From Betaproteobacteria bacterium (lineage in GTDB: Bacteria; Pseudomonadota; Gammaproteobacteria; Burkholderiales; Casimicrobiaceae), in contig JAAFIS010000001.1 of assembly GCA_013298695.1 (NCBI GenBank), forward strand, positions 682,001 through 746,000: DNA of 64,000 nucleotides, in the 5' to 3' direction. Made by a program: the position numbers and the translations under genes. Shown here one piece after another: positions 30,479-46,223 of the stretch; position 1 is the first letter of the stretch; every line of letters starts with the position of its first letter. The notes under the pieces are model-generated. The model had not been told where the DNA came from, did not search any database, and was given only the letters and a program-made list of their open reading frames with translations.

Positions 30479-30620
30479 GGTTCGACAAGCTCACCACGAA
30501 CGGCAGTGAGTGTGAGCGCAGCGTTCACTCCCGTGTCCTGAGCTTGGCGAAGGAACACGGGATCACCACGAACGGCAGTGAGTGTGACGACCCTTCGACT
30601 TCGCTCAGGATGAACGGAGA
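30479..30620. repeat. Dispersed repeat cluster
   Basis: Contains GGTTCGACAAGCTCACCACG at 30479, a second TCACCACGAACGG copy at 30563, and a CTTCGCTCAGGATGAAC end. The same core recurs at 43745, 44081 and 45297. Two copies each of CACCACGAACGGCAGTGAGT show an internal duplication. Confidence 0.75.
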
Positions 30621-42140: not shown

Positions 42141-43316
42141 ATGACTGATGCCGTAATCGTTTCTACCGCCCGCACACCGCTGTGCAAAAGCTGGAAAGGT
42201 GCCATGAACATGACTCACGGCGCAACGCTCGGCGGCCATGTGATTGAACACGCCTTGAAGCGCGCTGGCATCGAAGGCGGCGAAGTTGAAGATGTAATCA
42301 TGGGCTGCGCGAATCCCGAAGGCGCGAATGGCTGGAACATTGCGCGCCAATCCGCATTGCGTGCGGGCTTGCCGGTCACCGTGAGCGGCGTTACGGTGAA
42401 CCGCTTCTGTTCATCGGGTTTGCAAACCATCGCCATGGCCGCGCAGCGAATCATCGCGGGCGAAGGCGACACCTATGTTGCGGGCGGTCTCGAATCAATC
42501 TCCTGCGTGCAGCAGGAAATGAATCTGCACATGTTCAAAGAATCGTGGCTCGACAAAAACAAGCCAACGATTTACTGGAACATGATGCAAACGGCGGAAA
42601 ATGTTGCCAAGCGCTACGGCATTCCACGCGAGCGCATGGATCACTTCGGCGCAGAAAGCCAGCAGAAAGCGTGCGCAGCAAAAGCCGCGGGCAAGTTCAC
42701 CGATGAGATCGCACCGATCACCGTCACCGCGGGCGTTGCCGATCCGAAGCTCGGGATGATGACCAAACAAATCTTGGTTGAGCATGACGAAGGTTTGCGT
42801 GATGGCACCACGTATGAAGCGATCAGCGGCTTGCGCACCGCCGTTCCCGGCGGCGTCATCAGCGCAGGCAACGCATCGCAATTTAGCGATGGCGCAGGCG
42901 CTTGCGTTGTGATGAATTCGAAAGTGGCCGAAAAGAAGGGCTTGAAGCCGCTCGGCATTTTCCGTGGCTTCGCAGTCGCAGGTTGTGAGCCTGATGAAAT
43001 GGGCATTGGCCCCGTGTTCGCGATTCCAAAAGTGCTCGCGCGACTCGGCCTCAAAGTGTCCGACATCGACTTGTGGGAATTGAACGAAGCGTTCGCCGTT
43101 CAAGTGCTCTACTGTGCTGAGAAACTCGGCATCCCGATGGACAAACTAAACGTCAACGGCGGCGCAATCGCCGTCGGCCATCCGTATGGCATGAGCGGCC
43201 AGCGCCTCGTCGGTCACGCGCTGATTGAAGGCAAACGTCGCGGTGCGAAACTTGTTTGCGCGACGATGTGTATTGGTGGTGGGATGGGGGCTGCGGGAAT
43301 CTTCGAGGTGGTGTAA
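42141..43316 (+). CDS. fadA: Acetyl-CoA C-acyltransferase (thiolase)
   Basis: A 391-residue thiolase. Nucleophile Cys90 in [12 protein letters not shown], the GHPYGMSG block with His347, and the acid/base Cys377 in [10 protein letters not shown]. It also has the AIVSTARTP-like beginning ([14 protein letters not shown]). It cleaves 3-ketoacyl-CoA with CoA to acetyl-CoA and a shortened acyl-CoA, the last step of beta-oxidation after fadB. Ribosome-binding AGAGG lies upstream of the ATG at 42141. Function in fatty-acid degradation is well supported by the neighbours. Confidence 0.94.
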
Positions 43317-43674: not shown

Positions 43675-43691
43675 CGTGTTTTCAGCGTGTT

Positions 43692-43775
43692 GTTCGTGGT
43701 GACGGCTCGACGGGCTCGGCGCTAACCGTCGCGCAAACCTCTCACCGTTCGTGGTGAGCCCGTCGAACCATGAAC
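43692..43775. repeat. Dispersed repeat, left arm of inverted pair
   Basis: Holds a degenerate copy at 43692 (GTTCGTGGTGACGGCTCGAC) and a full copy at 43745-43775 that starts CCGTTCGTGGTGAGCCCGTC. The latter is the exact reverse complement of 44081-44111 over 31 bases. Together they frame the GIY-YIG gene. Confidence 0.85.
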
Positions 43776-43792
43776 AAAATTGAAGAACCCAT

Positions 43793-44140
43793 TTGGCTTT
43801 CTACGTCTACATTCTCAAATGCGCCGACGGCTCCTACTACACAGGTCACACCGACAATCTCGAAGCGAGAATTTGGCAGCATCAAGAGGGTAAAGCGGAT
43901 AGTTGGGTGTCGAAGCGATTGCCGGTTGAGTTGGTCTACGTCGATACATCACCGACTCGCGACGAAGCGCTGGCCTTTGAGTTTCAGATCAAGAAATGGT
44001 CTCGCGCAAAGAAAGAAGCATTGATTGCTCGTGATTGGAATAAATTGAAATTGCTTTCGAAAAGTTATTCTTCTGTTCGCGTTCATGGTTCGACGGGCTC
44101 ACCACGAACGGGTGTTGATGACGAGCCCCAATCCTCCTGA
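43793..44140 (+). CDS. Small GIY-YIG nuclease
   Basis: A 115-residue protein with TTG start at 43793. The GIY-YIG core is FYVYILKCADGSYYTGHTDN with the two Tyr (YVY and YYTG), then an Arg helix (LEARIWQHQEG), WVSKRLPVELVYVD and the Glu of EALAFEFQIKKWSRAKK. It resembles the YhbQ/UPF0213-type single-domain nucleases, which have weak DNA cleavage activity. The last 19 residues (VHGSTGSPRTGV..) are translated from the right-hand copy of a dispersed repeat, and the stop overlaps the start region of the next gene. The gene is bracketed by a perfect 31-bp inverted repeat. Confidence 0.85.
   Translation: MAFYVYILKCADGSYYTGHTDNLEARIWQHQEGKADSWVSKRLPVELVYVDTSPTRDEALAFEFQIKKWSRAKKEALIARDWNKLKLLSKSYSSVRVHGSTGSPRTGVDDEPQSS
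44081..44111. repeat. Dispersed repeat, right arm of inverted pair
   Basis: Starts GTTCATGGTTCGACGGGCTC and is the exact reverse complement of 43745-43775 over 31 bases. It is read as the C-terminus of the GIY-YIG protein. Confidence 0.9.
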
Positions 44141-44141
44141 G

Positions 44142-46223
44142 ATGCGCACCACCGTCGACTTCTTCCTCCACCATTGGCTCAACATCGATTCGCTGACGTC
44201 GCGGTCGAGATTTGAGGATCATTCTCGCGAGACGTTTTCTGCGGTCTTGGATACCGCGGAGCAAATTGCGGCGGATAAATACGCGCCGTTCAATCGTGAA
44301 GTCGATAACGAAGAGCCGCGTACCGAAACAAACCAAGACGGCACGCTGCGCGTGGTGCTCCCGCGCGCGACGCATGAGGCGTGGGCGGCGTATGCGGGCT
44401 CGGGCATGCTAGCGGCAGCACAGGATTACGATTTGGGCGGCATGCAATTGCCCTACGTTGTTGAAGCCGCAGCGAACATGTTTTTTAGCCGTGCCTCGAT
44501 CAGCATTTCGTGGGCGCTGTTGACGACGGGCAATGCGAACGCGATCATGGCGCACGGCACGCCCGCGCAAAAAGAAGTGTTTGCGAAGAACGAATTCGCC
44601 GGGCGCTGGGCGGGGACGATGTGTTTGTCAGAGCCACAAGCAGGTTCGTCGCTCTCGGATATTGCAACGCGCGCCGTGCTTGATGATGAGAACGATTCGC
44701 TCGGACCGCGCTATCGTTTGTTCGGCAACAAGACGTGGATCTCGGGCGGTGAGCACGATGTCACTGAGAACATCGTGCATTTGGTGCTTGCGAAGATTCC
44801 GGATGAGAACGGGAAATTGGTGCCGGGGACGCGAGGGATTTCGTTGTTTATTGTGCCGAAATTTCTACCTCTCCCCGTGGGAGAGGTCGCGCGCGCCTTT
44901 AGCCCCGCACGTGATGCGGGGGCGGGTGAGGGAAAAACTGCCGTTGATAAAGATTCGAACGTCGCTTTCCCTCACCGGCACTCCGTGCCACCTCTCCCAG
45001 AGGGAGAGGGGAAGACGCGCAACGACGTCGTACTCGCAGGTTTGAATCACAAACTCGGCTGGCGCGGCACGCCAAACACCTTGCTTAACTTCGGTGAAGG
45101 CAAGTTCAAACCGCTTGGCAACGCGGGCGCGATTGGCTATCTCGTCGGTAAACCGGGCGACGGTTTGCGCTGCATGTTTCACATGATGAACGAGGCGCGC
45201 ATCGGTATTGGTCTTGCAGCGACGATGCTCGGGATGGCGGGCTATGAAGCGTCGCTGCAATATGCGAAGGATCGCAAGCAGGGGCGGCCGATCACCGGTG
45301 GTTCGACAAGCTCACCACGAGCGGAAAAAAACGCTGAGCAACCGCCTGTTGCCTTGATCGAACACGCCGACATCAAACGTATGCTGCTCGCGCAGAAATC
45401 GTATTGCGAAGGCGCGATGGCGCTCTTGCTTTACTGCGCGAAGCTGGTTGATGAAACGCACACTGGAGCTGAAGCTTCCGCAGCAGAGGCGAAATTGTTG
45501 CTCGAAGTGTTGACGCCTATTGCAAAGAGTTGGCCGAGCGAAAACTGCTTGGAAGCGAATTCGCTGGCCATTCAAATTCACGGCGGCTATGGCTACACGC
45601 GTGATTTTCCCGTCGAGCAGTATTGGCGTGACAATCGTTTGAACATGATTCACGAAGGCACGCACGGCATCCAAGCGATGGATTTGCTGGGTCGTAAAGT
45701 GGTGATGGAAGGCGGCAAGGGGCTCACGTTGCTTGCGACGAAGATCAACGACACGATTCAAAAAGCGTTTCACATTCCCGAGCTCGCGGAACACGCGCAG
45801 TCGCTTGCTCGCGCGTTGCAACACGTCGGCGCGGCGACGAAATCTGCTTGGTCAACCGGCAATCCGAATGAAGCGCTTGCGAACGCTGTGCCTTACATGC
45901 AGGCGTTTGGGCATATGGTGCTGGCTTGGGTGTGGTTGGATGTAGCGCTGGCGTTGGTGCACGAAGCTCGTGTTGATACACGCGCCGATCAGCAGGTTGT
46001 AGGCGCGGGCTTGACCGCGCTCTCCGAATCCGCTGATGAAGCGCGGTTGATCCCTGCCTTCGCGGGGACGCGCCTACCGGCCGATGGAGGAAGCTTCCGC
46101 GACGGCAAACTCGCGGCGTGTCGATATTTCTTCGCGTATGAAGTGCCAAAGATCGAAGCTTGGCTCGCAGTGGTGAAAACGCGCGACATGACTTGCGCAA
46201 ACATCTCTGCCGATGCGCTGTAA
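44142..46223 (+). CDS. Acyl-CoA dehydrogenase with in-frame repeat insertions
   Basis: A 693-residue flavoprotein from the ATG at 44142 (another ATG lies at 44118). It is of the long acyl-CoA dehydrogenase type: FADHSRETF-like beginning (FEDHSRETFSAVLDTA), CLSEPQAGSSLSDI for FAD binding, KTWISGGEHD, LLNFGEG, the ILEANSLAIQIHGGYGYTRDFPVEQYWRD block and HEGTHGIQAMDLLGRKV. These match a family that normally has about 600 residues. The surplus comes from three segments made of intergenic repeats: 44865-45011 (49 codons), 45297-45324 and 45996-46085. The catalytic blocks remain intact, so the enzyme may work. It oxidises acyl-CoA to enoyl-CoA with fadB and thiolase nearby. Confidence 0.9.
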   Translation: MRTTVDFFLHHWLNIDSLTSRSRFEDHSRETFSAVLDTAEQIAADKYAPFNREVDNEEPRTETNQDGTLRVVLPRATHEAWAAYAGSGMLAAAQDYDLGGMQLPYVVEAAANMFFSRASISISWALLTTGNANAIMAHGTPAQKEVFAKNEFAGRWAGTMCLSEPQAGSSLSDIATRAVLDDENDSLGPRYRLFGNKTWISGGEHDVTENIVHLVLAKIPDENGKLVPGTRGISLFIVPKFLPLPVGEVARAFSPARDAGAGEGKTAVDKDSNVAFPHRHSVPPLPEGEGKTRNDVVLAGLNHKLGWRGTPNTLLNFGEGKFKPLGNAGAIGYLVGKPGDGLRCMFHMMNEARIGIGLAATMLGMAGYEASLQYAKDRKQGRPITGGSTSSPRAEKNAEQPPVALIEHADIKRMLLAQKSYCEGAMALLLYCAKLVDETHTGAEASAAEAKLLLEVLTPIAKSWPSENCLEANSLAIQIHGGYGYTRDFPVEQYWRDNRLNMIHEGTHGIQAMDLLGRKVVMEGGKGLTLLATKINDTIQKAFHIPELAEHAQSLARALQHVGAATKSAWSTGNPNEALANAVPYMQAFGHMVLAWVWLDVALALVHEARVDTRADQQVVGAGLTALSESADEARLIPAFAGTRLPADGGSFRDGKLAACRYFFAYEVPKIEAWLAVVKTRDMTCANISADAL
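44865..45011. repeat. Composite repeat type A inside coding sequence
   Basis: 147 bases, exactly 49 codons, with the same block order as 40414-40558: CTACCTCTCCCC, GGGAGAGGTCGCGCGCG, GGGTGAGGGAAAA, TTTCCCTCACCGGCACTCC, CCTCTCCCAGAGGGAGAGG. It is read in frame in the acyl-CoA dehydrogenase and sits between FIVPKFL and RNDVVLAG, normally close neighbours. Confidence 0.9.
45297..45324. repeat. GGTTCGACAAGCTCACC repeat inside coding sequence
   Basis: Carries GGTTCGACAAGCTCACCACG, the same core as at 30479 and, with few changes, 44081. It is read in frame as GGSTSSPRA in the acyl-CoA dehydrogenase, in the loop after GRPIT. Confidence 0.85.
45996..46085. repeat. TGTAGGCGCGGGCTTGACC repeat inside coding sequence
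   Basis: Has TGTAGGCGCGGGCTTGACCG near 45998 and CCTGCCTTCGCGGGGAC at 46054. Related copies are at 48560-48690 and 49108. It is read in frame as VVGAGLTALSES and LIPAFAGTRLP, inserted before the FRDGKLAACRYFFAYE block. Confidence 0.85.

Follow-up and report, generated by a model that had tools for sequence, protein, structure and literature searches.

The window, the whole 64,000-nucleotide stretch of DNA that we analyzed, contains a small gene with a GIY-YIG domain (PF01541) enclosed by a perfect inverted repeat, as an earlier note on this sequence had reported (Table 1). The two arms are 31 nt long, 100% complementary, and separated by 305 nt. The reading frame runs through the right arm, which encodes residues 97-106, and reaches its stop codon at 44138-44140. 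The earlier note derived the last residues of the protein from this repeat; that is correct for residues 97-106, but the final eight or nine lie past the arm. The degenerate repeat outside the left arm is 75% similar to the right arm read in the same orientation and 73% complementary to the left arm. In a related genome, G002, the bracket is longer than that of the window and has sequence similar to this degenerate repeat. The downstream dehydrogenase gene had been read as starting inside the arm, but its orthologues start at a position matching 44142, and the window gene probably does so as well.

Table 1. Features of the nuclease locus and copies of its repeat in the window.
Feature	Position	Strand	Basis
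Thiolase-like left neighbor	42141..43316	+	Sequence reading alone
Degenerate related repeat, adjoining the left arm on the outside	43691..43726	+	Sequence likeness
Left arm, a 31-nt unit of the dispersed hairpin repeat	43745..43775	+	Perfect inverted repeat; unit dispersed genome-wide
Single-domain GIY-YIG ORF (predicted nuclease), 115 aa, TTG start	43793..44140	+	PF01541, catalytic residues, dN/dS
Right arm, inverted 31-nt copy, overlapping the 3' end of the ORF	44081..44111	-	Perfect inverted repeat
Acyl-CoA-dehydrogenase-like right neighbor	44142..46223	+	Sequence reading alone
Solitary repeat copy, in frame within the dehydrogenase gene	45300..45324	-	Core match
Solitary repeat copy (core)	30479..30498	-	Core match

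The 20-nt core of the repeat, allowing up to 3 mismatches, occurs at four places in the window, against an expectation of 0.02, and none of 100 shuffles gave as many. These are the two arms, 30479-30498, and 45300-45319, and the two non-arm copies differ at 2 positions. Both solitary copies had been noticed before, the first at its correct position and the second in the correct gene but at 45297. Across the 4,076,941-base window genome (G000), a 24-mer with up to 2 mismatches has 68 copies, 35 and 33 by strand, against 0 whole-genome matches for the reversed pattern, so the claim of a dispersed family holds. Among the 30 of 68 copies that we read, the conserved stretch is CCGTTCGTGGTGAGCYYGTCGAACCATGAAC and conservation stops at its limits; thus, the dispersed unit is identical to the 31 nt of the arms. 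As single strands, two idealized 33-nt variants fold into an 11-bp hairpin at −8.9 kcal/mol, with z-scores of −3.5 and −4.7.

The copies are clustered, with 17 close pairs in the genome where 0.56 would be expected. Six of these pairs are direct. Among the 11 inverted ones, which include the gene's own, eight are oriented opposite to the bracket and three are bracket-like. Because only 3 of 17 close pairs resemble the bracket, doublets in that orientation are not the main unit in this genome, where the repeat consists mostly of single 31-bp units. G002 contains 204 copies of the window's repeat in total, and three of its contigs (C3, C4, and C5) carry dense arrays of it, with orientations partly in regular alternation.

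The GIY-YIG protein

By its sequence, the window protein belongs to the GIY-YIG superfamily, with predicted nuclease activity. The PF01541 match (E = 6.5e-17) covers residues 3-74 of 115, and the active-site set of the superfamily (two tyrosines, an arginine, and a glutamate) is present. Across 21 sequences, Y16, G18, R26, and E63 never vary, and Y6 and H30 hardly do. The structure model, whose fold matches 1zg2 and Slx1, has a mean pLDDT of 76.5, with values under 50 at residues 92-115, among them the part encoded by the repeat. The nearest solved structures are the UPF0213 proteins BH0048 (1zg2; phmmer 5.6e-17, Foldseek with the window model 3.9e-7) and EF2693 (1ywl; 5.5e-11 and 1.8e-4). NCBIfam gave no match for the window protein. 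We rejected a defense or phage gene as a candidate, since neither the window protein nor that of locus L115, described below, had a PADLOC or PHROG match. A plasmid search gave matches to 33 records, all with coverage below 80%.

Substitution rates indicate that the gene is under purifying selection (dN/dS between species of 0.06-0.11, with dS saturated). The two tandem nucleases of G002 have a mutual dN/dS of 0.28, and one of them lacks the GIY tyrosine. The earlier note described repeat-encoded tails like that of the window protein as frequent in such proteins, which fits one branch only. When arm classes were assigned by a rough pattern at 61 loci (27 from the genus and 34 from the GTDB scan below), the arm encoded the tail at 15 of 24 loci with TTCGxxxTGAG-type arms but at 3 of 37 others. 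At loci with other arm types, the stop codon often falls a few bases short of the arm.

Bracketing and enzyme-repeat pairing across genomes

Seven PF01541 matches occur in the window genome, two of them in long frames (615 and 496 aa). The five small genes are all bracketed, by different repeats: the window's own, GTCATCCCCGCGAAGGCGGGGACCCAGACCG (31 nt, perfect), TGCGTCATCCCGGCGAAGGCCGGGACCCA (29 nt, perfect), an imperfect GTCATTCC-type pair, and a weak pair around a copy broken by a stop codon. In 17 genomes of the genus, inverted hairpin repeats belonging to several families enclose 28 of the 30 small GIY-YIG loci, meaning that the local-alignment score of an inverted repeat spanning the gene exceeded those of all 1536 control positions, which overlap and all come from the window. 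These 30 loci were taken from 32 matches, two short partial ones without a locus having been dropped. The two unbracketed loci are L049, in G001, and L056, near a contig end.

The same arrangement extends to more distant relatives. A GTDB genome scan found brackets (score of at least 14) at 35 of 46 scorable relatives compared with 32 of 833 control positions taken from the flanks of these loci; one locus, L110, was too short and was dropped. For genomes of the family and order, the count is 22 of 43 compared with 8 of 191 control positions, with L077, L084, and L222 among the positives resembling GC-rich coding sequence rather than repeats, and with L078 (short) and L079 (no match) left out. 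The earlier note had proposed to look for such flanking by inverted copies, and it exceeds the control rate at all three levels. These results bear on the simplest alternative, namely that the gene just happens to sit between two copies of an abundant repeat. The 68 clustered copies in the window genome would make such a placement easier, but 28 of 30 genus loci are enclosed, by different families, against 0 of the 1536 overlapping control positions. The genus and GTDB-scan counts refute chance placement, to which we assign next to no weight.

Bracketing by inverted repeats is a general trait of this nuclease group, though not of every small GIY-YIG gene. Where a genome is rich in the repeat but has no close nuclease, a bracket was seen at only 3 of 9 small GIY-YIG genes (L244, L251, and L258). 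None was found at L239-L241, three genes resembling the UPF0213 proteins BH0048 and EF2693, for which we know of no repeat association. Long GIY-YIG genes had a bracket in 0 of 16 cases (L255 dropped), a weak control because the test window was placed around the domain and hence partly within the gene. We rejected the idea that the arms are always oriented alike; by a rough pattern, 67 of 82 upstream arms are in the usual sense.

Sequence comparisons further indicate that related nucleases carry related repeats, across taxon groups as well. At 82 loci, the more alike two nucleases are, the more alike are their arms (Mantel r = 0.62; 0 of 2000 permutations as high). Restricting this to pairs with different taxon labels gave r = 0.57 (0 of 2000 permutations as high, and again 0 of 2000 with shuffling confined to each label), where the labels are coarse: the genus, the other family and order genomes, and the named Betaproteobacteria are all betaproteobacterial, and one of these three labels bears a guessed order name. 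The set excludes loci scoring below 14, the tandem copy L051, the frame-broken L066, and L085, which is the same place as L039. Within the genus, the closest relatives of the window nuclease (68-81% identity) have GTTCGTGGTGAGC..GTCGAAC arms. Eight relatives at 46-57% comprise five with GTTCRCCCTGAGC..GTCGAAG arms and three with a variant ending in AGCGAAG or its reverse, and 13 of the 18 more distant nucleases have CGTC-type arms. That the combination turns up again with related enzymes in many bacteria suggests a partnership between enzyme and repeat.

Co-occurrence by genome points the same way, in counts that ignore relatedness. The sequence GTTCGNNNTGAGCNNGTCGAA was found in 54 of 399 genomes of the order, its reversed control giving 2 matches overall. 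Among the 19 genomes whose nuclease match reaches E ≤ 1e-20, 14 have it, as do 40 of the remaining 380; the corresponding counts are 18 of 28 and 36 of 371 at 1e-15, and 12 of 14 and 42 of 385 at 1e-25. That the repeat strictly requires the nuclease was nevertheless rejected. Repeat-rich genomes without a nuclease match at E ≤ 1e-15 (at least 5 copies) number 22, and 6 of the 12 that we searched have no small GIY-YIG gene; these six (G116, G032, G354, G140, G104, and G150) hold 13-74 copies, and each has just one GIY-YIG match, located in a frame of 598-804 aa. The window's repeat family has 48 copies in G001, yet the best nuclease of that genome is only 34% identical. G116 (74 copies) and G032 (34 copies) carry the TTCGxxxTGAGC-type repeat with a GIY-YIG match of UvrC length only, and their repeats may be orphans or served by another partner.

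Such genomes are what one would expect if the repeats were spread by a RAYT, another transposase, or replication errors, and if small nuclease genes were passengers captured between the copies. Passengers should not, however, predict the repeat family from their own branch, and all five small GIY-YIG genes of the window genome are bracketed, by different families. We regard the passenger explanation as improbable.

History of the site and copies elsewhere

The nuclease gene lies between the thiolase-like and acyl-CoA-dehydrogenase-like genes in three species, with 81% identity to the window protein in G004 and 70 and 68% in the two tandem copies of G002. The thiolase-like gene is conserved as the left neighbor in 11 of 14 loci read. 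In 11 of the 14 genomes with an orthologous dehydrogenase, the interval between the neighbors is readable, and 3 of these contain the nuclease and 8 do not. The eight nuclease-free intervals differ in length and hold unrelated sequence, so no join, and hence no clean empty site for the window gene, is definable. In G005 (L136), two small adjacent frames that by eye resemble a toxin-antitoxin pair occupy the position of the nuclease. On the dehydrogenase tree, G003 (without the nuclease) is sister to G000 (with it), and G005 (without) is sister to G002 (with). Since these sister pairs differ, three changes are needed at the site, most simply read from the tree as one gain and two losses.

The window copy is old, a long-term resident of its lineage and not a recent jumper. 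It is the only nuclease of its type in the window genome, and the description of it as self-moving is not supported, given its presence at one site in three species and the lack of dispersed copies in G000. The earlier note had counted vertical conservation at the site with unrelated flanks against its own reading; the gene is so conserved, and this condition applies apart from the arms, which are conserved along with it.

The repeat itself varies more within the neighboring gene. The dehydrogenase gene is 21 bp longer in G000 than in G003, and the solitary window-repeat copy of G000 sits in a loop of 111 nt rather than 90. In G014, the same loop contains an inverted pair of a related repeat (168 nt compared with 90 in its sister G001), and the loop is 90 nt in the other 12 of 14 genomes. 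Compared with repeat-free orthologues, neither the solitary copy nor the G014 dimer showed a target duplication. Further low-complexity, repeat-like insertions vary by species in this gene and its orthologues (L133-L145), for example after a conserved IVPK motif in G000, G003, G002, G005, G014, G001, and G013.

Several copies that are alike only within their ends, a trait of transposable elements, were found in Caulobacter-type MAGs and not in the window genome. The Caulobacter MAG that contains L115 has three boxed genes (L115, L117, and L121) that are 82-87% alike inside the arms and unlike outside. Probing five Caulobacter-type MAG genomes with one locus revealed many further places, and the 16 that we compared are MITE-like, with internal deletions. 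Five derivatives in G067 (L172, L173, L175, and L176 intact, L174 cut by a contig end) are 85-98% alike and, as we read them, share one internal deletion junction. Another junction is common to L182, L183, and L184 (the last one cut) in G068, which are 97-99% alike, and L180 of G067 has this G068-type junction at 86-87%. In the flanks of L171-L186 beyond the arms, C-rich or T-rich runs are often seen on the left and A-rich or G-rich runs on the right, several of them leading into a GCAATGGGTCG-like motif that could be a further dispersed repeat serving as a landing place.

The flanks of the derivatives are mostly dissimilar, with short common stretches and two pairs at orthologous sites across genomes: L171/L181 and L176/L183. 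The latter pair matches at 95% over 1184 bp on one side and 80% over 655 bp on the other, yet the derivatives are of different types, each the common type of its own genome. This difference speaks for exchange or conversion where a site already exists rather than for simple insertion into new places, and it weakens the use of deletion derivatives as proof of new-site insertion. At the sufD-sufS junction (names by reading), five MAGs with flanks 83-89% alike carry three different repeat-bounded inserts in identical register: one with nuclease-element arms (G068), another kind shared by G064 and G066, and a third found in G065 and G067. We found no clean empty site for L115; its right flank is kept in four other MAGs, and its left flank only in G064, more than 1 kb off, with unrelated DNA between that conserved flank and the position of the element. 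Neither the window site nor the L115 site was clean, and no gene-carrying copy showed a precise empty site or a duplicated target.

The long residence of the gene and the purifying selection on it would also suit a nuclease that does not spread anything. It might cut the repeat when this is single-stranded, either in incoming DNA or where exposed, thereby tuning transformation or recombination, a role that Ssn and its repeats are said to have in Neisseria, with the repeats spreading by other means. The pairing of repeat and enzyme requires recognition only and would be accommodated equally. The position of the gene between two inverted copies is left unexplained, as are the boxed multi-copy genes and their deletion derivatives, and we consider a pure target-site role unlikely, though worth keeping in mind.

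Proposed mechanism and relation to known systems

Based on this evidence, we propose that the locus is a REPtron-like unit, in which a nuclease from the repeat-associated branch of the GIY-YIG family lies between inverted copies of its own hairpin and would cut it. We give this reading a probability of about 0.55. It draws on the bracketing, the enzyme-repeat pairing and their co-occurrence by genome, the hairpin form of the arms, the conserved catalytic residues and the purifying selection on the gene, and the copies and exchange in Caulobacter-type MAGs. We counted against it the six repeat-rich genomes with no small GIY-YIG gene and G001 with no close nuclease; the window gene, unmoved in its clade; the want of a precise empty site or duplication, with derivatives that perhaps reflect conversion at old sites; and the low share of bracket-like pairs in G000 and of bracketed small GIY-YIG genes in repeat-rich genomes that lack a close nuclease.

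The nuclease may also help to spread the repeat. It would recognize and cut the hairpin when single-stranded, whether on the lagging strand, during repair, or upon DNA uptake. GIY-YIG enzymes hydrolyze DNA without rejoining the ends; copying would for this reason fall to host repair, which could fill the break from another repeat-bounded sequence and so create new copies. Such cut-and-repair would spread or convert chiefly the 31-nt unit, sometimes dimers or derivatives, and rarely the whole gene. This would explain why single units are the commonest product, why inserts are exchanged where the arms are equal, why duplications are lacking, and why the gene is such a slow-moving resident.

More tentatively, and as a possibility that we rate as less likely than not, these loci might represent an unrecognized class of mobile DNA whose sole protein is a hydrolytic GIY-YIG nuclease. 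Its full elements, deletion derivatives, and single hairpins would spread by cut-and-repair copying at cognate hairpins, including the exchange of whole inserts. If true, such a class would be the missing partner of CGTC REPs and of TTCGxxxTGAGC-type repeats. The observations point toward a possible way for DNA to spread by means of an enzyme that cuts without joining, and the flanking repeats allow the cutting site of many small GIY-YIG proteins to be predicted.

REP-like hairpins are very common bacterial repeats, and our analysis allows a comparison with the better known systems among them. REPtrons are genes for RAYT (TnpA_REP) tyrosine transposases flanked by REP/REPIN hairpins (PMC8266576, PMC3116915, PMC3733652). 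The analogy to REP elements and RAYTs drawn in the earlier note fits in layout: a gene for a DNA-cutting enzyme, here a predicted one, is boxed by inverted copies of a dispersed hairpin repeat. The enzyme type is likewise matched to the repeat type, the genome holds both dimers and single units, and the gene resides in its lineage. Unlike REPtrons, the window locus encodes a predicted hydrolytic GIY-YIG nuclease instead of an HUH/tyrosine transposase of the IS200/IS605 kind, its 31-nt unit has no GTAG tag, and bracket-orientation doublets are a minority in its genome.

CGTC-tagged REPs, including Neisseria dRS3, are described in a 2013 survey as not associated with transposase genes, and their form there is a C/TGTC tag, an AT-initiated stem of 8-9 bp, and a CCA tail (Di Nocera et al. 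2013, PMC3733652). The window repeat does not have this form; idealized, it has an 11-bp stem and no CGTC tag. By eye, many arms of more distant nucleases do resemble CGTC REPs (e.g. L054, L059, and L080). A nuclease group that is regularly boxed by REP-like repeats, and whose own type the repeat type follows, is a candidate partner for the CGTC super-family, which by that survey has no dedicated transposase. The main text of a 2025 REP survey mentions no nuclease, RAYT, or transposase (PMC12306157).

Our literature search, which mostly covered papers outside subscription, found none linking GIY-YIG nucleases with REP-type repeats. In Neisseria, Ssn GIY-YIG enzymes reportedly cut a repeated sequence as a single strand and have thousands of homologues, according to a 2025 Nature Communications study. 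The window locus would resemble Ssn in its small GIY-YIG enzyme, in a dispersed repeat as the putative cognate sequence, and in its many homologues. The bracketed loci may be the natural setting of such single-strand nucleases. The pairing of enzyme and repeat is possibly known already, and what appears to be new here is a REPtron-like layout with a predicted GIY-YIG enzyme.
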